From Eubacterium sp. (lineage in GTDB: Bacteria; Bacillota; Clostridia; Lachnospirales; Lachnospiraceae): a stretch of 10,791 nucleotides of DNA. The notes beneath the pieces are model-generated. The model had not been told where the DNA came from, made no database searches, and worked only from the letters and a program-made list of their open reading frames with translations. Positions within the stretch are counted from its first letter, which is position 1; every line of letters starts with the position of its first letter. A program made the position numbers and the translations under genes. This document shows, one piece after another, positions 1-10,791 of the stretch. The DNA lies in NCBI GenBank assembly GCA_020844525.1, contig JAJGAH010000040.1, forward strand, positions 1 to 10,791. The letters run 5' to 3'.

Positions 1-926
1 CTACGATCGGAGAAAAAAATGTACTTGCAAGCAGACTTCAGCCCAACCACCCTGTGGATGACCCCAAAGGAGTGACAGCAAGTATATTGGAAGGGTTAAG
101 CTATGGTGCTGGTGATGCTGTGATCGGTCTGAATCCTGCAATTGATACTGTAGAGGACACGATTGCCATCTGGGACTTATTGTGGGATATCAAAAATGAA
201 TATGAGATTCCCACACAGACCTGTGTCCTGAGCCATATCACAACGCAGATGAAGGCACTGGAAAGAGGTCACAAAGCTGATCTCTGCTTTCAATCCATTG
301 CCGGGACAGAAGCGGCTCTGGCCTCCTTTGGTGTCACCACAGATATGCTGAAGGAAGCTAATGAAATGTTCCATGAAGATGGAGGTTCTAAAGGTCCCAA
401 TATCATGTATTTTGAAACAGGACAGGCCAGTGAGTTATCTTCGGGATTTCACTATGGATGGGACCAGCAGACCATGGAGTGCCGCTGCTACGGTCTGGCA
501 AGACACTACAGACCATTCCTTGTAAACACAGTTGTAGGCTTTATGGGGCCTGAGTATTTATATGACGCAAGGCAGCTGCTGCGGGCCGGCCTGGAGGATG
601 TATTTTGTGGTCATCTGCATGGGCTGCCGATGGGCTGTGACTGCTGCTATACCAATCATATGGTCACGGACCAGAATGATCTGGAAAGCCTGGCTTCCAT
701 GCTTACTGCAGCCGGATGCCATTATTTTATGGGTCTTCCTCAGGGAGATGATGTCATGCTGATGTATCAATCCAGTGGCTATCACGATATCGCTGCCCTC
801 CGGCAATTATTCCGGAAGAAGCCGATTCATGAATTTGAGGTCTGGCTGGAAAAGCGTGGTATCTATGAAAACGGAAGGCTGGGCCCTGCTGCAGGAGATC
901 CGACCAGATTTTGCAGAAAAGCATAG
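1..926 (+). CDS. eutB: Ethanolamine ammonia-lyase large subunit (C-terminal part, cut by window start)
   Basis: This is the catalytic TIM-barrel subunit of adenosylcobalamin-dependent ethanolamine ammonia-lyase, which converts ethanolamine to acetaldehyde and ammonia. The frame is open from base 3 to the TAG at 924-926, giving 307 residues of a family length of about 450, so roughly the first 145 residues lie outside the window. The GTG at 54 is an internal codon, not a start. Family motifs seen in order are SRLQPNH, GAGDAVIGLNP, YFETGQ, TMECRCYGLARHY, GPEYLY, GCDCCYTNH and GDDVMLMYQ. By spacing, these keep the residues known in Salmonella/E. coli EutB as substrate or active-site contacts (Arg160, Gln162, Asn193, Glu257, Glu287, Asp362, numbered from memory). 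Nothing looks broken. The stop codon overlaps the ribosome binding site of eutC, so the two are translated as a pair. Confidence 0.97.
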   Translation, partial: TIGEKNVLASRLQPNHPVDDPKGVTASILEGLSYGAGDAVIGLNPAIDTVEDTIAIWDLLWDIKNEYEIPTQTCVLSHITTQMKALERGHKADLCFQSIAGTEAALASFGVTTDMLKEANEMFHEDGGSKGPNIMYFETGQASELSSGFHYGWDQQTMECRCYGLARHYRPFLVNTVVGFMGPEYLYDARQLLRAGLEDVFCGHLHGLPMGCDCCYTNHMVTDQNDLESLASMLTAAGCHYFMGLPQGDDVMLMYQSSGYHDIAALRQLFRKKPIHEFEVWLEKRGIYENGRLGPAAGDPTRFCRKA

Positions 927-937
927 GAGGAAAACTG

Positions 938-1645
938 ATGCTCCCGAAAGACTACTCTGGAACATATAAAAATCCGCAGGAAATGACACGATTAAAGAAA
1001 AGTACACCGGCAAGGATCGGTATCGGGCATTGCGGTCCGCGTTATACTACAAAGGCTATGCTCGCATTCAGAGCTGCGCAGGCACGGGCAAATGACGCTG
1101 TACAGCTGGAGGTGCCTGATACTGTGATAAAACAGCTCGGAGTCTTTGAAGTAAAAACAAAGTGTTCCAATAAATATGAAATGCTGACACGGCCTGATTG
1201 GGGAAGACTCTTTGATGATGAGACAAAGAAAATAATCAGCGAACGTTGTGAGCATAATGTCGATGTGGAGATATACTTTGGAGATGGTTTGTGCAGTCCC
1301 TCCATCGCTGCCAATATTCCAGATCTCTATCAGGGAATGAAAGCCGGGCTGGAAGCAGAGGGAATCCATGTTGGAACTCCATTTTTCGTCAGATACTGCA
1401 GAGTAAATACAGCACGCACCATCGGTCCGCTGCTGAATGCGAAGCTCACCTGTGTATTAATTGGAGAACGGCCGGGACTGATCACGAATGAGAGCATGTC
1501 TGCATACATGGCGATGCACGCAAACCCCCAAATGTCGGAAAGCGACTACAAAGTAGTCAGCAATATCAGCAGAGTCGGAATGCCACCTGTTGAAGCTGCT
1601 GCGTATATTGTGGAGATCATGCTGGATATGCTGAAGCATACATAA
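938..1645 (+). CDS. eutC: Ethanolamine ammonia-lyase small subunit
   Basis: EutC is the small subunit of ethanolamine ammonia-lyase and helps hold the cobalamin cofactor against EutB. The chosen ATG at 938 has an ideal AGGAGG (925-930) seven bases upstream, overlapping the eutB stop. An in-frame ATG at 911 lies inside eutB and is not needed. The product is 235 residues. Conserved stretches are ARIGIGHCGPR near the N-terminus, EVKTKC, LTRPDWGR, the glycine-rich GDGLCSPSI segment, VGTPFFVRYCRV, LIGERPGL and GMPPVEAAA. It is shorter than the roughly 295-residue enterobacterial protein, and the missing part is the N-terminal extension rather than the conserved core. No other eut gene follows; transcription runs into the terminator at 1652-1685. 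Confidence 0.97.
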   Translation: MLPKDYSGTYKNPQEMTRLKKSTPARIGIGHCGPRYTTKAMLAFRAAQARANDAVQLEVPDTVIKQLGVFEVKTKCSNKYEMLTRPDWGRLFDDETKKIISERCEHNVDVEIYFGDGLCSPSIAANIPDLYQGMKAGLEAEGIHVGTPFFVRYCRVNTARTIGPLLNAKLTCVLIGERPGLITNESMSAYMAMHANPQMSESDYKVVSNISRVGMPPVEAAAYIVEIMLDMLKHT

Positions 1646-1651
1646 AAAAGA

Positions 1652-1685
1652 GAGGGCAGCGATACTTCCGTTCGTTCCTGCCCTC
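1652..1685. terminator. Bidirectional intrinsic terminator between eutC and urtE
   Basis: A perfect 8-bp stem, GAGGGCAG (1652-1659) with CTGCCCTC (1678-1685), closes an 18-base loop. Read on the - strand it is followed by CTTTTTT, a good terminator for the urt operon. Read on the + strand the tail is only ACTTT, so it should work less well for eutBC. It is the only structure in the 78-bp gap between the convergent genes. Confidence 0.85.
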
Positions 1686-1723
1686 ACTTTATCCATGTTC
1701 ATATTTACTGAAAACACTGCCCC

Positions 1724-2413
1724 TCAAATCATCATGCGTTCGATTTCACTTTTATCGGCATCCTTACGCTCGCTATGATAAATAATAGATCCTTTTTGCA
1801 TGACATAAATTTCATCGGCCAGATCCATGACAAAATCCAGATATTGTTCCACCATCAGAATTGTGATGTGACGTTCTTTGTTGATTTTTCGAATCGCATC
1901 CCCGATATTCTGAATGATCGAGGGCTGAATTCCTTCTGTCGGCTCATCCAGAATCAGAAGCCTGGGATCGGTGACCAGAGCCCGCGCAATGGCAAGCTGC
2001 TGCTGCTGACCGCCGGAGAGATCTCCGCCCTTACGCCCGGCAAAAGAAGGAAGTATCGGAAACAAATCGTAAATATACTCCGGGATCTTCAGGCTTTTCC
2101 CTCTTGCCCGCAATCCGATCCGCAGATTTTCCTCTACAGAAAGGTCCGGAAAGATCTCTCTTCCCTGTGGCACATAGCCAATACCCATTCTGGCCCTCTC
2201 ATACGTTGGAATCCCGGTTAACTCCTTGTCTTCCAGTTTAATACTCCCACTGTTTTCCTTTACAATTCCCATAATGGTACGCAGTGTCGTTGTCTTCCCA
2301 ACACCATTACGGCCAATCAGACAGACAATTTTTCCATCGGGAACTTCAAGGTCCAGGCTGGGAAGAACGTTTGTCTCCGAATATCCGGCGTTTAGTTTTT
2401 TTATCTCAAGCAT
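1724..2413 (-). CDS. urtE: Urea ABC transporter ATP-binding protein UrtE
   Basis: This is the second nucleotide-binding subunit of the Urt high-affinity urea importer (HAAT family), acting at the cytoplasmic face of the membrane. I start it at the ATG at 2411-2413, preceded by AGGAGG, giving 229 residues beginning MLEIKKLNAGY. A longer frame to 2476 lies wholly within urtD and lacks a reason to be used. Motifs: Walker A GRNGVGKTT (34-42), Q-loop VPQGREIFP (Gln83), signature LSGGQ (132-136), Walker B LLILDE (152-157). The stretch DEPTEGIQPSII after Walker B is typical of UrtE. The switch-loop histidine is replaced by Gln190 (VEQ), as is usual in UrtE/LivF proteins. It overlaps the urtD stop by 8 bp, implying translational coupling, and is the last gene of the operon. 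Confidence 0.95.
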   Translation of the reverse strand: MLEIKKLNAGYSETNVLPSLDLEVPDGKIVCLIGRNGVGKTTTLRTIMGIVKENSGSIKLEDKELTGIPTYERARMGIGYVPQGREIFPDLSVEENLRIGLRARGKSLKIPEYIYDLFPILPSFAGRKGGDLSGGQQQQLAIARALVTDPRLLILDEPTEGIQPSIIQNIGDAIRKINKERHITILMVEQYLDFVMDLADEIYVMQKGSIIYHSERKDADKSEIERMMI

Positions 2414-3185
2414 CCTTCTCGCCTCCTCTTCCCAGATAGACAGCCTGGACTTCCTTATTCTCCAGCGCTTCCTCAACGGTTCCCTTCACCAGGATCTTTC
2501 CTTCATGCAGAACCGTTACTTCATCGGCAATCTGCCGTACAAAATCCATATCATGTTCAATGACAATGATGGTACATCTGTCCTTGATCGCAAGAAGAAT
2601 ATCACCGGTCTTTCTTGTCTCGTCCTTGTTCATTCCTGCAGCAGGCTCATCAAGCATGATGATCTGGGGCTTCTGGACCAGAAGCATAGCAATTTCCAGC
2701 CATTGCTTATGCCCATGATCCAATGCGCCTGCCCTCTCTTCGGTATAACTTTCCATACCCACCTGCTTCAGCGTGTCAAGAATCAAAGTCCGGTCTTCCT
2801 CTGTCATTTTATAAAATAAAGCTTCTCTGACGCTCTTATGCCCTTTCAGAGAAAGCATCATATTATCCATAACACTCAGTCCGCCAAAGACAGAGGGTGT
2901 CTGAAACTTTCTGGCAACCCCCAGTCTGACGATCTTGTATTCAGGCAGCCTTGTCAGGATCGTCTCCGTACCGTCCTGATTACATAAACGGACATTTCCC
3001 TGTGTCGGCCTGGTTTTTCCGCAAATAATATCCAGGAGCGTTGTTTTTCCCGCGCCGTTCGGCCCGATAAAAAAACTGATCTTATGCTCGGGTATGTCTG
3101 CTGTCACATCCGTCAGCGCCTGGAATCCGTCAAAGACTACGGAGACTCTGCGTATCTTCATAATTGTTCTTGCTTCATCGTCCAT
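2406..3185 (-). CDS. urtD: Urea ABC transporter ATP-binding protein UrtD
   Basis: This is the first nucleotide-binding subunit of the urea importer. The 259-residue product starts at the ATG at 3183-3185, with a purine-rich AGAGGGAAAG upstream. An internal ATG at residue 9 is a weaker alternative. It carries the UrtD hallmark VFDGFQALTD (about 17-26), Walker A GPNGAGKTT (41-49), and the Q-loop RKFQTPSVF (Gln95). Walker B is IIMLDE (175-180) and the H-loop is IVIEHD (His211). The ABC signature is LDHGHKQWLEI (from 155) instead of canonical LSGGQ. UrtD/LivG-type proteins often carry LSHGQKQWLEI here, so the family pattern is present with Ser to Asp and Gln to His changes. It lies 19 bp after urtC and overlaps urtE. 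Confidence 0.95.
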   Translation of the reverse strand: MDDEARTIMKIRRVSVVFDGFQALTDVTADIPEHKISFFIGPNGAGKTTLLDIICGKTRPTQGNVRLCNQDGTETILTRLPEYKIVRLGVARKFQTPSVFGGLSVMDNMMLSLKGHKSVREALFYKMTEEDRTLILDTLKQVGMESYTEERAGALDHGHKQWLEIAMLLVQKPQIIMLDEPAAGMNKDETRKTGDILLAIKDRCTIIVIEHDMDFVRQIADEVTVLHEGKILVKGTVEEALENKEVQAVYLGRGGEKDA

Positions 3186-3204
3186 TTTTCTTTCCCTCTT
3201 TCCA

Positions 3205-4317
3205 TTAGTGCGCCTGTAACTCCTGCTTTTCTTTGTCCAACGGTTTTGAGGCCTTCCGTTTTCGAATGGCAGCAGGAATCTGCTCTGTCAAGATACCCAT
3301 AAGTCCGCCCTTGAAGAACAGAATCATGACAACAAAAAGTCCACCGATAATATACTGCCAGATATCAACAAGGACTCCGGAACTCAGATTATACTCGCAT
3401 AGATTGATCAGCAAGGCACCGATCACTGGTCCCAGAATGGTTCCTCTTCCTCCTACGGCCACCCAGATAATCATGGTGATAGAATAGGTAATGGTCATCT
3501 GTGTAGGTGTGACGCTTCCGTTGAAGTTGATGAAAAGCGCGCCCGCCACAGCTGCAAGCATGGCAGAAATAACATAAATTGTATTCTTATAGGCGCTGAC
3601 CTTGTATCCTGAAAAATACGTACGGTTCTCACCGTCACGAATCGCGATGAGAATCTTTCCGAATTTGGATTTCACGATTTTTTCGGAAAGAAAATACACG
3701 ACAATCAGAACAGCCAGACTCACATAGAACAACATCGCCATATTGGAAAAATGCCTCTTTCCCCGGATACTTCCAAAAACAGATTGAATCTCCGTGATTC
3801 CGACATTTCCGTTGGTGTAGGGAGAAAGGGCAATGAACAGGGAATATCCCGCCCACGTCAGTGCCTGAGAAATAATTGAAAAGTAAACTCCTTTAATTCG
3901 ATTTCTGAAAATCAGCGCGCCCAGAATTCCTGCAATGCCTGCCGGAATGACAAGAATCAGCACGATTGTACCCGGCAAAGTCCGGAAAAGGCTCCATATC
4001 AAGGGCAGCTTCTTCAATCCTCCGGTTTTCATGAAATCCGTCATCTGTCCATCTGTTGCCTGCAGTTTCAGATACATACCCATACCATAAGCACCCAATG
4101 CGAAGTACAATCCATGCCCAAGGGAGAGAATACCTGTATAGCCCCAGATCAGGTCCAGTCCGATTGCTACAATACAGAAACAGATACATTTGCCGATATA
4201 GGTGACAAAGGACGAACTGCTGATTACACCGGAATTTAACAGAACGGGACAGAGCGCCAGTATCCCTGCAATTACAAGAAAACAGATATTTTTTGTCTTA
4301 TCCTGTGTTATTTTCAT
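3205..4317 (-). CDS. urtC: Urea ABC transporter permease UrtC
   Basis: This is one of the two membrane-spanning permeases forming the urea channel with UrtB. The 370-residue product starts at the ATG at 4315-4317, with AGGAGG (4325-4330) seven bases upstream, touching the urtB stop. Strongly hydrophobic segments occur throughout, beginning with a first helix near residues 11-30. Family marks are SLGHGLYFALGAYGMGMYL (about 65-85), the external loop with NGNVGITEI, a cytoplasmic coupling-loop region around AIRDGENRTYFSGY, and AVGGRGTILGPVIGALL near the C-terminus. The end is a charged cytoplasmic tail (AIRKRKASKPLDKEKQE). The gene sits 12 bp after urtB and 19 bp before urtD, in the standard urtABCDE order. 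Confidence 0.95.
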   Translation of the reverse strand: MKITQDKTKNICFLVIAGILALCPVLLNSGVISSSSFVTYIGKCICFCIVAIGLDLIWGYTGILSLGHGLYFALGAYGMGMYLKLQATDGQMTDFMKTGGLKKLPLIWSLFRTLPGTIVLILVIPAGIAGILGALIFRNRIKGVYFSIISQALTWAGYSLFIALSPYTNGNVGITEIQSVFGSIRGKRHFSNMAMLFYVSLAVLIVVYFLSEKIVKSKFGKILIAIRDGENRTYFSGYKVSAYKNTIYVISAMLAAVAGALFINFNGSVTPTQMTITYSITMIIWVAVGGRGTILGPVIGALLINLCEYNLSSGVLVDIWQYIIGGLFVVMILFFKGGLMGILTEQIPAAIRKRKASKPLDKEKQELQAH

Positions 4318-4329
4318 TTCTCTGCCTCC

Positions 4330-5235
4330 TTAATCATCCAGTGCACGGGATTTTCTGGAAAAAATCCCTTCCGGCTTTACCTGAAGGAACGCAATGATAA
4401 TGACCATAACAATGGCATTCGCAATATTTGAACTGGTATAAAACTGCACCCAAATCGTACTAAAGCCTACAATAAGAGAACCGATCACAACACCCGCAAG
4501 ATTTCCGACACCACCAAGTACTACCGTAATAAAGCACTGTACAATATAGTTCTGACCCAGATGGGAATCGATGGAACCGAGCAGCGCAAGAGAACATCCA
4601 GCCAGACCGGCCAGCGCTGAGCCAAAACCAAAGGTCAGGCAGTCAATTCGTCTCGAGTTGATTCCCATACTCTGTGCAATGGGCCGATTGTCAATGACTG
4701 CCCGCATCTGCTTGCCAAAGCTGGATTTATTCAGAACCGCACTGACGATAATCAGGCTGGCAATGACCAGACAAATAATGAAAATTCTGTTATATGAAAA
4801 AGTCACAGATCCTATGCTTAAGCCCCCGGTCAGAAACCCTGGGGCCTGTACATTGACGCCCTGAGTTCCAAAAAGGGTCCGCGCCAGCTGCATCAGAATC
4901 AGACTGATTCCCCAGGTAGCCAGGAGGCTGTCAACCTCCCGGCCATACAGATGGGAAATTACCAGTTTCTCCAGGACGCAGCCCAGCAGGAATGTCACTG
5001 CAAAAGAAACTACAAGGGCTACAGGATAATACAGGTCAAAGACAGCGGCCGGCAGAAAATTTTGAAAGAACAGCTGGACCAGATAAGTGACATAAGCGCC
5101 GATCATCAGAAATTCCCCATGGGCCATATTGATGACTTTCATCAATCCGAAGGTAATGATCAAACCTATGGAAGCCAGAAGAATAATGGAGCTCAGACTC
5201 AGCCCATTAAACATCGTTGTAATAATTGTACTCAT
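4330..5235 (-). CDS. urtB: Urea ABC transporter permease UrtB
   Basis: This is the partner permease of UrtC in the urea importer. The 301-residue product starts at the ATG at 5233-5235; the upstream AGGATGGGGTGA is a modest ribosome binding site. Hydrophobic helices alternate through the whole length. Recognisable permease motifs are MKVINMAHGEFLMIGAYV (about 32-49), the cytoplasmic loop RAVIDNRPIAQSMGINSRR, and VVLGGVGNLAGVVIGSLIVG near the C-terminus. This is the compact permease-only form. Many proteobacterial UrtB proteins carry an extra N-terminal extracytoplasmic region of roughly 200 residues, which is absent here. The gene lies 38 bp downstream of urtA. Confidence 0.95.
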   Translation of the reverse strand: MSTIITTMFNGLSLSSIILLASIGLIITFGLMKVINMAHGEFLMIGAYVTYLVQLFFQNFLPAAVFDLYYPVALVVSFAVTFLLGCVLEKLVISHLYGREVDSLLATWGISLILMQLARTLFGTQGVNVQAPGFLTGGLSIGSVTFSYNRIFIICLVIASLIIVSAVLNKSSFGKQMRAVIDNRPIAQSMGINSRRIDCLTFGFGSALAGLAGCSLALLGSIDSHLGQNYIVQCFITVVLGGVGNLAGVVIGSLIVGFSTIWVQFYTSSNIANAIVMVIIIAFLQVKPEGIFSRKSRALDD

Positions 5236-5273
5236 TGATCACCCCATCCTCTCTTTTTCTGCGTCAGGTCCGA

Positions 5274-6560
5274 TCAGCTCTCAACCGGCTGTACATCGGA
5301 CGCCCATGCATAATTCTTCAGATATGGATCCGGTTCTACAACATCATCTGTTGCATAAACCTCATCGATCAGACCCTGATCGTTCACCTTTCCGATGCGA
5401 ACCTTCTTATAGCAATGCTGATTGTCTCCATCAATGGTAATGGTACCCTCCGGAGCCTTGAAGGAAATCTTTCCGGTATGGATGGCGTCAAGCACATCGT
5501 CAACATCTGTACTATTTGCCGCTTCACAAGCTGCTTTCCAGAGATAAACTGCATCATAGGCAGCTTCAACCGGATCAGAGGTGACACGGTCCTGTCCGTA
5601 GGCTTCCTTATAAGCCTTTACAAAGGCTTCATTCTCCGGGGTATCCGTTGTCTGATAGTAGTTCCAGGAAACCAGATGGCCCTTCAGAATATCCGCACCG
5701 ATGGTTTTTACCTCTTCCTCGGCAATGGAGAAGGACATTGTCATGTAGTCATCTGATGTATAATTTTTTTCAGCCATCTGCTTGAAGAAGGAAACATTTC
5801 CGGTTCCATTCAATGTGTTGATGATAACATCGCAGCCGGAGGACTCTATCTTTGAGATAATGGAAGAGAAATCTGTCTGATCCATATCTGCATATTCCTC
5901 GCCCACCACCTCAAGTCCGGCATCGGCAAGCTGTGCCTTGATAATTTCATTTGCCGTACGCGGGAAAACATAGTCGGAACCCATCAGGAAATATTTTTTA
6001 TATCCTTGATCAATCAGATACTGAATGGCCGGAACAATCTGCTGATTCGGCGCTGCTCCCACGTAGACGATATTATCGGAATCCTCCATTCCTTCATACT
6101 GAACCGGATACCACAAAAGATTGTCGTAATCTTCAAAAATCGGCTTTACTGCCTTCCTTGATGCTGAAGTCCAGCACCCGAAAACCGTGGCTACCTGATC
6201 TTCATCAATCAATTTCTCTGCCTTTGTGGCAAAGGTTGACGGATCTGATTCTCCATCTTCCTCCACATATTCAATCTGCTTTCCCAGAACACCTCCATCA
6301 GCGTTAATCTGCTTAATCGCCAGCACCTCCGCGTCACGTACTGCCTCCTCACTGATTGCCATGGAACCTGTCAGGGAATGCAGCAAACCAACCTTGACCG
6401 TATCTCCGGATGCTGCCGAAGCACCAGAACTGGCAGTCGATGATGCTGATCCTGCGGATGCTGCTGATGAACCTCCGGCTGATGCTGCAGATCCGGCTGA
6501 ACCACATCCTGCAAGTAACGACATCGCAAGTACCGCTGCTAATAATCCTCTCTTTCTCAT
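5274..6560 (-). CDS. urtA: Urea ABC transporter substrate-binding lipoprotein UrtA
   Basis: This is the extracellular urea receptor of the Urt importer, anchored to the membrane by lipid. I start it at the ATG at 6558-6560, which has AGGAGG (6568-6573) seven bases upstream and yields a proper lipoprotein signal peptide. A frame extending to 6665 would place 35 non-signal residues in front and is rejected. The 428-residue product has a positively charged MRKRG start, a hydrophobic core and lipobox LLAG-Cys19. A flexible Ser/Ala/Gly-rich linker follows to about residue 52. The type-I periplasmic binding fold then begins with [17 protein letters not shown]. UrtA-specific marks include [49 protein letters not shown] and [12 protein letters not shown]. 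It is the first and probably most strongly expressed gene of the operon. Confidence 0.97.
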
Positions 6561-6679
6561 AATCTCTCCTCCTTTTTTCTTGAATCTGAAATTAAAAGTT
6601 CCGTGGTTAGAAAAAGGAAGCCGACTGCAGATCCGCTGGTATCTGTCCGTCGACTCCCTTGTCACGCTGTATTCAGTTT

Positions 6680-6695
6680 GCAGAATATATTCTGC
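6680..6695. promoter_or_regulatory. 16-bp perfect palindrome upstream of urtA (operator candidate)
   Basis: GCAGAATATATTCTGC reads the same on both strands. It lies 119 bp upstream of the urtA start in the 166-bp gap after the kinase-like gene. A loopless perfect palindrome suits a dimeric repressor or activator better than an RNA hairpin. I found no convincing -35/-10 pair in this gap, nor a clear GlnR/TnrA-type TGTNA-N7-TNACA site, so the regulator is unknown. Confidence 0.45.
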
Positions 6696-6726
6696 CCTTT
6701 ACAATACTCCCTGATTGGCCTGAGCT

Positions 6727-7383
6727 TCAGGACTGTTCCTGCAGAATATCCCGGCCAAGCTTATAGGAGGTGTACCATATGATCGAATCTACACACCCAT
6801 CAATGGTGACTCTTTCTGAATTCAAAGTCATATCGTAGGCGACAGGATCTGTCCACTTCTTTCCTCCGGTATAATACTGATAGTAATCTGCCCGGTACCT
6901 GTCTGTATGGTGAATCATTTTCGCCGCTTCATCGTACTCACATCCAAAGTCCTTCATGACCCTGGCAGCACAGAAGGCTCTGGGTGCCTCAATGTAAAAG
7001 CTGACTACATTATCCCGGTCCTTCAGGATATCATTGGCGCATTTGCCGATGATCACACAGGATTCTGTATCTGCAAGTTCACGAATCACTTTTGCCTGAA
7101 TATTAAACAAATTGACATCTGAAACAAAATTATGCTCAGTTGGCTCAATAATTTTGTCTCTGTTTGGAACTGCTTTTAAACGTCTCAGGAGTGCATTCCC
7201 ACGCAGTTTTTCATTTGTCTGAACAAACTCTCTTTCATTGATGCCGCTGATCTCTGATGCCATCTTCATGATCTGCGTGTAATAACAGGGAATTCCAAGT
7301 TTCTTTGCAACCTTCAGGCTGATTTCTTTTCCACCGCTCCCAAAGCCTCTGGCGACGGTTATGATATAATTCCTCCGGTTCAC
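6727..7383 (-). CDS. Cytidylate kinase-like family P-loop protein
   Basis: The 218-residue product resembles the cytidylate kinase-like family (Cytidylate_kin2). These are nucleotide-kinase-fold proteins common in Clostridia whose true substrate is mostly unknown. The start is the GTG at 7381-7383, preceded at seven bases by a strong AAGGGAGGTG (7391-7400). The N-terminus IITVARGFGSGGKEIS (about 7-22) is the family's P-loop-like glycine-rich motif. The middle holds VIIGKCANDIL, FYIEAPRAFCAARV and the helical lid-type segment HHTDRYRADYYQYYTGGKKW. YDMTLNSERVTIDGCVDSI lies near the C-terminus, where the family has a YDLxINS-like strand. It is not the essential cytidylate kinase Cmk. It runs in the same direction as urtA, 166 bp upstream, and could be co-transcribed with the urea transporter genes. 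A regulatory or phosphotransfer role there is only a guess. Confidence 0.85.
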   Translation of the reverse strand: MNRRNYIITVARGFGSGGKEISLKVAKKLGIPCYYTQIMKMASEISGINEREFVQTNEKLRGNALLRRLKAVPNRDKIIEPTEHNFVSDVNLFNIQAKVIRELADTESCVIIGKCANDILKDRDNVVSFYIEAPRAFCAARVMKDFGCEYDEAAKMIHHTDRYRADYYQYYTGGKKWTDPVAYDMTLNSERVTIDGCVDSIIWYTSYKLGRDILQEQS

Positions 7384-7489: not shown

Positions 7490-7709
7490 TCACGACTTTT
7501 CAGTATTTATATAGATACTTTTGTTGATTTCAGATATTGATCTCTTCCCGTATACTTATTTACAGGAAAATGCTCTCCGTATTATAATCATATTTATATA
7601 TAGAGAAATAGATACAAATAATATTTTTTCCATTCTTTTCACGTTCATATCCCGCTTAGGAAAACTACATGAAGAGAAAAAACTTCTGCAATAATATTGA
7701 TGCGATACC

Positions 7710-7737
7710 AAAAGAGAACCGGCAGATCAGCTGTTCT
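7710..7737 (-). terminator. Weak terminator-like hairpin at the end of rep
   Basis: On the - strand, AGAAC (7737-7733) pairs with GTTCT (7719-7715), with a partial inner stem, and TTTT follows (7713-7710). The hairpin spans the rep stop codon at 7727-7729. The stem is short, so this is only a tentative terminator; the much better one lies at 7403-7444. Confidence 0.35.
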
Positions 7738-9124
7738 TCATGCTTTCAACAGTGAAGTCCATGTACATCCTGATCCGCTCATCGATATCGAAGGCCAGCT
7801 CCATTGCCTCAAGTGGCACACCAATGCTGTCCACAAAATCCTGGAAATTATCCTTCTGCTTATATCTCTCCCAGACAAGCTCCTTTGTTCTGGTTGTGTG
7901 TGACTCCTTATGCAGGACCCTTGCGGTTTCCGCATCCTCTGTACTGCCTCCCACAGCTTCCACAACCTGATCTGCATAGCGGTTTTTCACGGCTTCTCGA
8001 AGCCAGCCGAAGTAATTCCGGATCGTGACGCCGCTCGTCTTGGCGTAATCAATCTCTCTCTTGATCACATCCGAATCCCCACCGGCCTCCTGCAGCAGCT
8101 TGTCATAATAATCCATTGTAAAACCGCTTGTCGCACGGATTCCGCTCTTCTTCAGATAAGTGAGAAGCTCAGAGTATTCCCGGAGCTTCTTCGCCCCGCT
8201 CTCCTTATCCTCCTTTGCAAGCTTCTCAAAAGGATCCGGCTCTGCAACCTTCGCGTATTCCGGACTGATCTCCACAATCTTCTCACGGTTCTTATGAATG
8301 GTCTCAAGATTTGCCTCCGGCAGGTTCCAGGAAATCATGAAGAGAATATCTGTCGCCCGCCCGCGATTTCCTCTCTCCACTGTATATTCAAAGGTGATAT
8401 CCGCCTTCTCATCCATCTCTGCCTTTGCCTCATCGAGAACCTTTGTGCGGAAATCGGTGAAACGCTCGTACTGCTTGTCCTCCTTCTTCGCCAGATGTAC
8501 GAGTTCCGACCATGTCGCACCATCTGACACGGCTCTCTGCAGATAAGAGGCATCCAGATTCACAAGACCCAGGGTGCAGCGAAGCTCATCCACACTGTAA
8601 ACCTTTGTGACAAACTTGGATTTCGTCGTGTCGATCTTGTAGGCTTCCTTCTTCAGAAGCTCATACAGACGGAAGGAGCTGTTCTTCTCAAAGGATACCA
8701 GCGTTGCCAGCTCCATGGACGTATAGCTCTTCTGGAGACTTGTGATGTGCGGTGTCATCTCCCGGTTGTAGATAATCTCCAGCTTCTGGTCCTTATAGGA
8801 AACATTGGTGATCATCGTAAAGGTGTGGAAGTTTCCAAGCCCGTCCTCAATAGTAATAATGTTGCCAGCCAGCTGCTTGCTTACGCTTTTGAGCTTCTTG
8901 TAAATGTTGGTGTCTGTCTCATTGCCGAGGATCCGCTTGATCTCACTTGGGTAGAGCGTTGCCATAACCTGCTTTGATCCGGGCTCCTGCTGAAGCTTGG
9001 TGAGTGAGACTGCGATAATCTTGTTTCCTAAAATGGAAGTCTTATATTTTGCATTGATCAGTGAATTACTCTTGCGGACAACGACCCCATCGATCAGATC
9101 GTTCCGCACACTGGTGCTTGTCAT
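7727..9124 (-). CDS. RepB/Rep_3-family plasmid replication initiator
   Basis: This protein should bind the iterons upstream of its own gene and open the origin for theta replication. The 465-residue product starts at the ATG at 9122-9124, with AAAGGGGAT (about 9133-9141) upstream. The first winged-helix domain (about 12-150) begins VVRKSNSLINAKYKTSILGNK and includes YPSEIKRILG. The second (about 150-266) contains FRLYELLKKEAYK, YSVDELRCTLGL and the DNA-contacting strand/helix region VLDEAKAEMDEKADITFEY. About 200 residues follow with no domain I can name except a stretch near GVTIRNYFGWLREAVKNRY. That stretch resembles the C-terminal 'IKNPFGYL' segment of several Gram-positive RepB proteins. 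Its dyad- and iteron-marked promoter suggests autoregulation. It points the same way as the kinase-like gene and urt operon. By eye it is richer in G and C than the flanking non-coding DNA. Confidence 0.9.
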   Translation of the reverse strand: MTSTSVRNDLIDGVVVRKSNSLINAKYKTSILGNKIIAVSLTKLQQEPGSKQVMATLYPSEIKRILGNETDTNIYKKLKSVSKQLAGNIITIEDGLGNFHTFTMITNVSYKDQKLEIIYNREMTPHITSLQKSYTSMELATLVSFEKNSSFRLYELLKKEAYKIDTTKSKFVTKVYSVDELRCTLGLVNLDASYLQRAVSDGATWSELVHLAKKEDKQYERFTDFRTKVLDEAKAEMDEKADITFEYTVERGNRGRATDILFMISWNLPEANLETIHKNREKIVEISPEYAKVAEPDPFEKLAKEDKESGAKKLREYSELLTYLKKSGIRATSGFTMDYYDKLLQEAGGDSDVIKREIDYAKTSGVTIRNYFGWLREAVKNRYADQVVEAVGGSTEDAETARVLHKESHTTRTKELVWERYKQKDNFQDFVDSIGVPLEAMELAFDIDERIRMYMDFTVESMKNS

Positions 9125-9148
9125 GTGTACAATATCCCCTTTATCTGT

Positions 9149-9230
9149 CAGAAAGCGACAAAAATACCGTTAAAGGGAATCATACTCTATTCCCTCCGAT
9201 TTGTCTCTCAGATAACGAAAAATCTACTTA
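9149..9230 (-). promoter_or_regulatory. rep promoter and probable autoregulatory operator
   Basis: On the - strand a TATGAT -10 (9184-9179) lies 17 bases from a GAGACA -35 (9207-9202). A 7-bp inverted repeat, AGGGAAT (9174-9180) with ATTCCCT (9189-9195), covers the -10. Reverse-oriented iterons lie on both sides: 9149-9170 between promoter and start codon, and 9209-9230 directly upstream of the -35. Rep bound to these sites would block its own transcription, as is known for other Rep_3 initiators. The -35 is a weak match. Confidence 0.5.
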
Positions 9231-9825
9231 TTAATTTTCCTTTACATTTCAGTAGTTTTTTCGTTATCTATACATTTCCTGAATGCATCAGCGACAAATT
9301 GACTGAATCAGTAATCCTGTCGTTATCAGTTCTCAATAAACACTGATTTTACAGGTTCTCACAACATCTGGCTGTTCAGTATCATTTTCGTCATCTGATA
9401 TTTCCAGGCGTGATTCAGTAGTTTTTTCGCCATCTGGTTACATAAATATGAACCATTTCAGTTTATTTTTCGTTTTCTGCCAGTCTATCTCACCACTTTA
9501 CATAAGTCATTTCTTCGTCATCTTATTTGTTCAGTAGTTTTTTCGCTTTCTGAAGCCTCATTTTCGTCTAACGATCAGTTTCTCTTTCGTTTTCTGAACA
9601 GGTTGCCTTGCATGGCAGACTTTTTGACAGCGACAAAATTACTTAAGATAAGTATCAGTACTTTTTTCGTCATCAGTATTCACATCGGTGTCTGCAGTAT
9701 ATTTTTCGCTTTCTGATTTATGATTGGAGTTTTTTGTTCTTTATCTGCCTTCCCAAAGCTGTTTGCTGAAATTCTCCTTTTTCGTATTCTGCCTTCATTT
9801 CAATGCTTTCTGGAAGTAGAATTTA

Positions 9826-9837
9826 TGTCAGCTGACA
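9826..9837. promoter_or_regulatory. 12-bp perfect palindrome abutting an iteron
   Basis: TGTCAGCTGACA is a perfect palindrome that overlaps the first three bases of the iteron at 9835-9856. Its TGTCA/TGACA half-sites suit a dimeric DNA-binding protein. No partner is identified in the window. Confidence 0.35.
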
Positions 9838-9895
9838 GTAGATCTTTCGTTATCAGGAACCGGAAAGCCCTTGATCTGTAAGCATTTTCCGCCCT

Positions 9896-9957
9896 CTAAA
9901 TAAAGAAATATAAATGTTGTTATATAATAATATAAAATAAATGGGATTTTCCATAAT
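9896..9957. other. AT-rich block, candidate DNA-unwinding element
   Basis: This stretch is almost only A and T (for example TTATATAATAATATAAAATA at 9919-9938). It lies between the last dense + iterons and the reverse iteron at 9963-9984. Iteron plasmids melt at such AT-rich segments next to the initiator sites. I saw no consensus DnaA box (TTATNCACA) nearby, so the assignment rests on composition and position only. Confidence 0.5.
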
Positions 9958-10031
9958 ACAGACAGATGACGAAAAAATGACTTACAACAACTAATATACA
10001 AAGCTTCGCTGCTCCTGCAACGCTGTTGCTG

Positions 10032-10053
10032 TATCTATATCTATATCTATATC
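10032..10053. repeat. TATCTA hexamer tandem repeat
   Basis: The hexamer TATCTA is repeated three times, followed by TATC. It is a short AT-rich microsatellite inside the origin region, 75 bp beyond the AT-rich block. It could add to duplex instability or vary in copy number between strains. Confidence 0.8.
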
Positions 10054-10212
10054 GGGTTACCGCTTTCAATTCTCCCTTAAATGTATTACTGATTTTTTCC
10101 AGCTAGTTGATAATATCGTTATATCAATTGCGTACACCTCCTGCTGATTTCTTTGTATAGTATGGGTATGTGATTTGTGAAAAAGGAAACATTCTGTATG
10201 ACTGCATAATAA
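10054..10212. other. Gene-free origin flank
   Basis: No convincing gene is visible. The stretch holds an imperfect dyad (TTGATA 10107-10112 with TATCAA 10122-10127, centred on an AT-rich core). On the - strand it also holds an isolated AGGAGGTG (10136-10143) with no sensible reading frame behind it. It separates the main iteron field from the inverted iteron pair at 10213-10271. Confidence 0.5.
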
Positions 10213-10271
10213 AAAAGCAGATAACGAAGAAACTACTTGTCTGAGCAGTCATTTTTTCGTCATCTGCTTTT
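10213..10271. repeat. Inverted pair of iterons forming a large imperfect palindrome; terminator candidate for the dipeptidase
   Basis: A reverse iteron (10218-10239) and a forward iteron (10245-10266) face each other across a 5-base spacer. They are flanked by AAAAG and CTTTT, so the 27-base arms (10213-10239 and 10245-10271) match at about 21 positions. Transcribed leftward from the dipeptidase gene, the hairpin is followed by TTTTTTATT (10216 downward), a good intrinsic-terminator layout 113 bases after the stop. The same DNA may therefore act both as an initiator binding site and as a transcription stop. Confidence 0.6.
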
Positions 10272-10384
10272 CTAACAGTAAATTATCAGGTTCTTTTATA
10301 CTTCGGCTTCTAATCCTTTTACGAACACATTGATTTATATCATTGTAAATGAAAACGCGCATTTATCACCAGATCGGTCTGTCT

Positions 10385-10791
10385 TCAATGGTCTGATCTG
10401 GCATAGGAGTTTTTCATCTGATTGCTCAAAGCATAGAGGACTTTGTCCAATGTATCAGATGCTTCCGCTTCAAGAAAATCGGACATTTCCTGATTTGCGG
10501 TTTCAGCAAGTTCATGAATGCTGTCCTGACACTCTGGTCCAGCGCATGCATCGCATACAGCCTTCATCTTCTGATCATACTTGTGCAGAATTTCATGTCC
10601 TTTTGCACCAACGGTCTGCTGATAGCGTTCAATATGGAAAAGGCTCTTTCCATAGGAGGCGTCCGTCATCGCCGCGATCATGCGGCTTGTCCAGTAGAAA
10701 TTGTCAGTGGAGGCGTGCTTTCCGGTATTGGACAGATAAGCAGGCGTCTTTGTGACATTGGCGTACATGGGCACCCATGTATTGAAGGCAT
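10385..10791 (-). CDS. C69-family dipeptidase, C-terminal fragment (runs off the window)
   Basis: The frame is open from the window edge to the TGA at 10385-10387, about 134 residues; the GTG at 10772-10774 is internal. The segment FNTWVPMYANVTKTPAYLSN followed by FYWTSRMIAAMTDASY and IERYQQTV.AKGHEIL matches the C-terminal part of peptidase family C69 (PepD-type dipeptidases, N-terminal-nucleophile hydrolases). The catalytic N-terminal cysteine would be on the missing part, so activity cannot be judged. The last 50 residues are helical and charged (ELAETANQEMSDFLEAEASDT), as usual for the family. Downstream hairpins are at 10369-10401 (weak, no U-tract) and 10213-10271 (better). Confidence 0.8.
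   Translation of the reverse strand, partial: AFNTWVPMYANVTKTPAYLSNTGKHASTDNFYWTSRMIAAMTDASYGKSLFHIERYQQTVGAKGHEILHKYDQKMKAVCDACAGPECQDSIHELAETANQEMSDFLEAEASDTLDKVLYALSNQMKNSYARSDH

Follow-up and report, generated by a model that had tools for sequence, protein, structure and literature searches.

A plasmid-type iteron field beside a Rep_3 initiator gene, very probably an origin of replication, among core genes of an uncultured Lachnospiraceae lineage

A single origin per chromosome is regarded as the rule in bacteria. Contig JAJGAH010000040.1 of a Eubacterium sp., whose full 10,791 nucleotides are the window analyzed here, carries a field of 22-bp repeats (iterons) next to rep, a gene for a Rep_3-type replication initiator; the locus raises the question of whether this field is a working origin and, if it is, whether it replicates a plasmid, a second chromosome or the main chromosome. 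The window is the entire contig C40 of a draft assembly (G000; 2.53 Mb in 384 contigs, estimated to be 69% complete). In our genus sample of 16 genomes, a close rep orthologue (92% identity) is present in three of the 15 other genomes (G213, G203 and G208), or four of 16 counting G000; any Rep_3 domain occurs in six of 16, and the G+C content of the rep-bearing contigs is 49–51%. The field is very probably a working Rep_3 origin, and there is good support for its serving a replicon that carries core genes. We further consider it probable that this core-gene replicon is replicated in both directions from a captured Rep_3 iteron origin, most likely a second origin on the main chromosome beside dnaA/oriC. 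Several observations bear on these conclusions: the iterons are conserved, the RepE-like initiator evolves under purifying selection, core genes surround the locus, and strand composition reverses at the gap in three relatives.

The proposed origin fills the 1.26-kb gap between rep and a C69 family dipeptidase gene (9125–10384). We built a site matrix from the clear copies of the field itself and scanned positions 9125–10385 at a threshold of at least 14 bits, which returned 18 copies of a 22-bp element with the consensus TCAGTANTTTTTTCGTTATCTG, 13 on the plus strand and five on the minus strand, spanning 9149–10266; each of 300 first-order Markov shuffles contained at most one. The same scan found no site in the other 9,124 bases of the window. 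As an independent test, the window-trained matrix identified 16, 18 and 19 sites in the rep gaps of the three relatives and only 2, 2 and 0 sites outside the gap on the orthologous contigs (87.7, 90.9 and 75.6 kb). A prior sequence-only reading of the window had described about 20 copies of a 22-bp element with the conserved half TTCG-YYW-TCTG beside a Rep_3 initiator; the field and the half-site are both borne out, and the count is right if two further weak matches (9673 and 9813) are added to the 18. The Rep_3 iteron origin proposed in that reading also fits, with the repeats kept beside orthologous rep genes and motif density low elsewhere in the window and on the three contigs.

A four-way alignment of the gaps revealed 12 sites common to all four genomes, in the same orientation and within 14 columns of each other; identical columns amount to 258 of 481 inside sites versus 169 of 496 outside. 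The common sites are iterons 1 (9149–9170) and 2 (9209–9230) on the minus strand, iterons 3 (9249–9270), 4 (9308–9329), 6 (9415–9436), 8 (9503–9524), 9 (9531–9552), 10 (9575–9596), 12 (9655–9676), 13 (9694–9715) and 15 (9835–9856) on the plus strand, and iteron 16 (9963–9984) on the minus strand. Iteron 7 (9458–9479, plus) is common to three genomes; iterons 5 (9376–9397, plus) and 11 (9624–9645, minus) and the weak iteron 14 (9726–9747, plus; 19.4 bits) occur in the window only. Lying 24 bp upstream of the rep start codon, iteron 1 is a candidate autoregulatory operator of rep. An inverted iteron pair closes the field in all four genomes, aligned in three and placed differently in G213; in the window its left arm is iteron 17 (10218–10239, minus) and its right arm iteron 18 (10245–10266, plus). 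The two arms (10218–10266) fold as a hairpin (-30.9 kcal/mol, z -7.7) followed by a U run on the strand of the C69 gene, a terminator-like arrangement, so this origin element may double as a transcription terminator.

Adjoining iteron 16 is an AT-rich block (9897–9956, 87% A+T), the highest-AT 60-mer of the window field and a candidate DNA-unwinding element; an AT-rich block aligns there in all four genomes, and in every one but G213 no 60-mer of the field has a higher A+T content. DnaA boxes are common in iteron origins. Allowing at most one mismatch from TTATCCACA, we found no DnaA box in the iteron field of any of the four genomes, and boxes of this quality at all six dnaA loci examined. 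The sites had been predicted to lie on one face of the helix, a prediction that failed: for same-strand sites at a 10.5-bp period, Rayleigh R was 0.26, 0.15, 0.25 and 0.04 in the four genomes (p 0.44–0.98). Scanning periods from 9.5 to 12.5 bp gave scan-corrected p values of 0.34, 0.09 and 0.62, with G213 alone reaching 0.005, at 11.9 bp.

The initiator gene (7727–9124, minus strand) encodes 465 residues comprising WH1 (residues 16–158), WH2 (206–262) and an extra helical C-terminal part. Both domain scores exceed the curated cut-offs (PF01051, 77.1 versus 22.4 bits; PF21205, 36.7 versus 21.1 bits), and the protein has the RepE/pi fold. Across the four genomes, 1.3–5.0% of first and second codon positions have changed in rep versus differences at 35–63% of fourfold sites, which places the gene under strong purifying selection. 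Between the three species with long contigs, fourfold divergence is 0.35–0.46 for rep and 0.38–0.41 for alaS. Compared to mini-F RepE and R6K pi, the window Rep is only 14–19% identical and possesses the extra C-terminal part, of about 195 residues; the window iterons are spaced, more numerous than those of F and R6K, and accompanied by no DnaA box in the field. Similarity to the Rep of Butyrivibrio pCY186 is also low (24.8% identity over 79%); Butyrivibrio shares the family Lachnospiraceae and is described as having secondary replicons, and our literature search found no publication on iterons in that genus.

Taken together, a model for the origin can be proposed. Rep would occupy the scattered iterons as a monomer and open the AT-rich block beside them, and loading of the host helicase by Rep would require no DnaA box in the field. 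At the iterons adjoining its own start codon Rep would act as a repressor of rep, and firing would be kept in check by iteron titration or handcuffing.

The layout of the field had been suggested to be an undescribed origin architecture. Other loci share it: de novo motif discovery in the gaps preceding nine other Rep_3 genes of the family returned 9–22 dispersed repeats of about 22 bp in each (a count made without a shuffle control), mostly in one orientation, with some reversed at seven of the nine. A cruder repeat count exceeded 10 shuffles each at all ten other loci, marginally at L005, L009 and L017. The parallel with the best annotation is the complete, circular 242,774-bp plasmid of Roseburia sp. 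831b (NZ_CP135163.1), the Rep of which is 37% identical over 98%; the 869-bp gap that separates its rep from the gene in the parB position holds 19 dispersed repeats of similar form and different sequence, 16 one way and three the other. This plasmid differs from the window locus in that a parA-like AAA ATPase gene, and a hypothetical gene in the place of parB, adjoin its rep. A different Rep_3 gene, of 518 residues, is accompanied by parAB-like genes and about 22 repeats on G200 C12 (L136–L139) and G206 C73 (L142–L143), with neighbors that do not look plasmid-borne (HypB-like and SurE-like by eye); these contigs are possible chromids.

We were curious to know which genes share a replicon with the field. 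Above the NCBIfam cut-offs, G203 C14 carries ureC, thiC, the D-aminoacyl-tRNA deacylase gene, proA, sbcD, tgt, yajC, leuB and ilvD. Contig C16 of G213 carries alaS and rpsU above cut-off and scpA slightly below it (211 versus 234 bits), together with scpB and an adjoining metallophosphoesterase gene named by eye. The only above-cut-off alaS of G213 is this copy, 47 kb from rep; the only above-cut-off proA of G203, and that of G208, are likewise on their rep contigs, and these two genomes are collinear for about 65 kb across rep and proA. By collinearity with G203, C16 is continued by C2 (226,919 bases) into a 314-kb scaffold: the alignment of C16 ends at G203 base 43,895 and that of C2 begins 13 bases on, at 43,908, 0.7 kb from the C2 end. 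C2 contributes ffh, trmD, ylqF, a gyrB/parE-type gene, smpB, rnr, the phosphoglycerate mutase gene, tmRNA and three tRNAs. In the window, the C69 gene is cut by the contig end and only its C-terminal part is present (10385–10774, minus strand; 82.1 bits, below the 250-bit cut-off). The N-terminal part ends contig C83 of G000, which also has scpA- and scpB-like genes; a C83–C40 join would put these about 6–7 kb from the field.

Partition genes were sought in the 16 genomes with ParB (TIGR00180, E 0.001) and ParA (PF13614, E 1e-6) models, other partition types lying outside the search, and neither model matched on G213 C16 or C2, G203 C14, G208 C50 or G000 C40; for G213, the longest case, this amounts to 314 kb without a parA or parB match. 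By contrast, parA-like and parB-like genes do stand beside the more distant Rep_3 genes on G200 C12, G206 C73 and the Roseburia plasmid. A second parA–parB pair is present at G213 C1:334998–336201, away from the rep contigs, and also in G200. The core genes on the orthologous contigs and the lack of parA/parB matches there fit poorly with one half of an earlier suggestion, a low-copy megaplasmid; the other half, a chromid (here meaning a second chromosome), is possible and is taken up below.

Fourfold codon positions of the leading strand are usually richer in G, which is also seen here at dnaA. We queried the direction of replication by locating the single best change point of fourfold-site skew from gene to gene, expressed as a likelihood ratio (LR) and compared to 300 gene permutations. 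On the 314-kb scaffold of G213, the change point fell between a gene end at 60,065 and the rep start at 61,132, which is the iteron gap, with skew changing from -0.12 on the left to +0.23 on the right (LR 432; no permutation of 300 as large). The same gap was selected in G208 (10,875 to 12,139; LR 101; 0/300) and in G203 (7,544 to 8,657; LR 67), where only about 8 kb lie to the left and 22 of 300 permutations reach this value. Upon varying the open reading frame (ORF) filter, the G213 change point kept to the gap or moved by a single gene to the left; plus-strand genes alone gave the gap, and minus-strand genes gave intervals that contain it. G208 was stable for all genes and for plus-strand genes. 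Two controls behaved in like manner. On the dnaA contig of G213 (C21), composition changes beside dnaA (LR 72, 1/300); dnaA/oriC is kept there with a skew flip of its own. On the Roseburia plasmid, the change falls within the iteron gap (LR 51 for 34 coding sequences; LR 45 for all 43 complete coding sequences of a 49.5-kb stretch; 0/300 each), and parA and the next gene, read in the same direction as rep yet negative in skew, speak for the gap itself.

The alaS–rpsU–scpAB neighborhood also occurs in relatives that lack rep, which allowed the same genes to be compared with and without the field; the rep-bearing genomes form one clade and count once. Skew at fourfold sites of the alaS coding strand is -0.425 to -0.477 in the four rep-bearing genomes versus -0.42 to +0.07 in eleven rep-less ones. 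The A/T skew of alaS is negative in each of the eleven rep-less genomes; of the four rep-bearing ones, all but the G000 fragment have a positive value. For the metallophosphoesterase gene, skew is -0.22 in G213 and -0.01 in G000, and seven rep-less genomes range from +0.16 to +0.39; G213 has the lowest values for both scpA and scpB. The gene upstream of alaS has -0.25 to -0.36 in three rep-bearing genomes versus -0.23 to +0.03 in eight rep-less ones, with rep-less G202 at -0.45. Given the fourfold divergence between the three long-contig species, it is unlikely that the signal is a relic of an old rearrangement. In rep-less G205, GC skew passes from plus to minus between alaS and proA (C16, L077–L081), a terminus-like pattern that hints at a possible entry of the origin close to the terminus.

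Three of the four rep-bearing genomes (G000, G208 and G213) have a full-length dnaA with DnaA boxes close to it. The dense universal core genes and the missing parAB favor one chromosome with two origins, on which a plasmid-type origin near alaS–rpsU–scpAB, without parAB nearby, would send forks both ways. Our preferred account, held with modest conviction, is that a Rep_3 iteron origin captured by this uncultured Lachnospiraceae lineage has become fixed on its main chromosome, where it serves as a second, bidirectional origin beside the retained dnaA/oriC.

Several observations weigh against this account. No full DnaA match turned up in G203; in the other three rep-bearing genomes, which do have a full DnaA, rep and dnaA are on separate contigs, and none of the genomes is complete, so linkage on one molecule can only be inferred. 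G203 and G208 lack any ParB match, even a chromosomal one, which renders the absence of ParB from their rep contigs uninformative. The three long contigs share ancestry, and their flips are therefore not independent. In G213, skew is weaker to the left of rep than to its right, and the minus-strand genes of G208 are uninformative (LR 3). The G203 change point depends on the filter: four of nine settings placed it at 77–79 kb and three of nine elsewhere, with an LR of 7, when an antisense ORF was kept. This 77–79 kb point corresponds to a 1,458-residue ORF antisense to a 1,412-residue ORF, the counterpart of which was kept in C2; with the antisense ORF removed, the change point returned to the gap (0/300) at filters of 100, 150 and 200 residues and moved to 13.5 kb (3/300) at 300 residues. 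The Roseburia control is partly confounded by a nearby change in gene orientation and an A/T change point at 19.2–21.7 kb, 2–5 kb to the left of the gap. The alaS skew does not separate the two groups, as rep-less G202 (-0.424) ties with the weakest rep-bearing value, and in G000 scpA (+0.16) falls among the rep-less values and scpB at the low end of theirs. The signal near rep in G000 itself is faint or contrary: rep has +0.09, the kinase and urt genes downstream have -0.14 to +0.16, and eutC and eutB, on the other strand where negative values are expected, have +0.18 and +0.03; the C69 end has -0.38 from few sites. The genes downstream of rep in this genome differ from those of the relatives and may be recent arrivals.

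The principal alternative, possible and clearly short of an even chance, is that this working origin replicates a second chromosome, or chromid, a separate molecule carrying alaS, scpAB, ffh, trmD and many other core genes, with dnaA/oriC on the other chromosome. A plasmid-type origin together with core genes, the mark of a chromid, is what the rep contigs present; the separation of rep and dnaA in the drafts agrees with two molecules, and skew cannot tell one molecule from two. A search with a dif pattern gave no match in any of the 16 genomes. Chromids have been reported in Butyrivibrio, of the same family, which keeps this alternative alive, and one review describes chromids as carrying iteron or repABC origins, placing the iteron chromids in beta- and gammaproteobacteria (PMC6090056). 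Two points stand on the other side: the wealth of universal core genes on the 314-kb scaffold of G213 and on G203 C14, and the missing partition pair, unlike the distant Rep_3 genes of G200, G206 and the Roseburia plasmid.

It is improbable that the field is a non-firing remnant of an integrated plasmid, with the flip an old inversion boundary that coincides with the locus. The shared ancestry of the three flips, the filter dependence of G203 and the near-silence of G000 would suit such a remnant. It would, however, have kept Rep and 12 iterons while fourfold sites of rep diverged by 0.35–0.63, the flip would have persisted through that divergence, its boundary would have fallen within a gap of about 1 kb by coincidence, and a flip at a gap of this type is also seen in the Roseburia control. 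That the field belongs to an ordinary plasmid or megaplasmid, tied to core genes by assembly or binning chimeras, is hardly credible, and the rep contigs are almost certainly sound: the sources are draft assemblies, and the records of the three relatives metagenomic, but the G203–G208 collinearity, the joint presence of alaS, rpsU, scpA and rep on one G213 contig, the G000 assembly, which independently links scpA/scpB to the C69 gene, and the resumption of the G203 alignment near a C2 end, 13 bases after C16 stops aligning, all speak against chimeras.

The remainder of the window, downstream of rep (54–7383), holds a cytidylate-kinase-like gene, a urea-type ABC transporter operon (UrtA named by NCBIfam, the remaining genes by eye) and eutC/eutB. 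The orthologous contigs carry different genes downstream of rep, with ureC about 10 to 20 kb downstream. At about 79–87 kb, G213 C16 ends in a repeat-rich stretch that is CRISPR-array-like by eye (L022–L023).

Related systems have been described in other organisms. A review remarks that the consistent use of a single origin by bacteria may seem surprising, and gives ori-pHV4, an integrated plasmid, as an archaeal example of origin capture (PMC7174701). The ori2/RctB system of Vibrio cholerae is described as a plasmid-type iteron origin serving core genes. Natural exceptions to single-origin use that we found are single V. cholerae strains arising from chromosome fusion (PMC6284228, PMC5603330): NSCV1 and NSCV2 each combine two origin types on one fused chromosome, and both origins are reported to be active in NSCV1 (PMC6284228). 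In dnaA-deletion mutants of Synechococcus elongatus, chromosome replication is reported to start at the origin of an integrated plasmid (PMC7198777); these are laboratory suppressors without dnaA, whereas dnaA/oriC is kept in the present clade. The literature that we searched, with incomplete coverage, contained no report of a comparable system in Firmicutes.

If the preferred account is true, a plasmid-type second origin would be present clade-wide in a Firmicute and would show that origin capture can persist in bacteria too. One bacterial chromosome would then be shared by two initiator systems across species, over a time sufficient for the strand signature of neighboring core genes to be rewritten, and the coordination of two initiators could be studied in a natural setting. 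The field itself provides a clear iteron code with which the Rep_3 origins of large Lachnospiraceae replicons can be tested.
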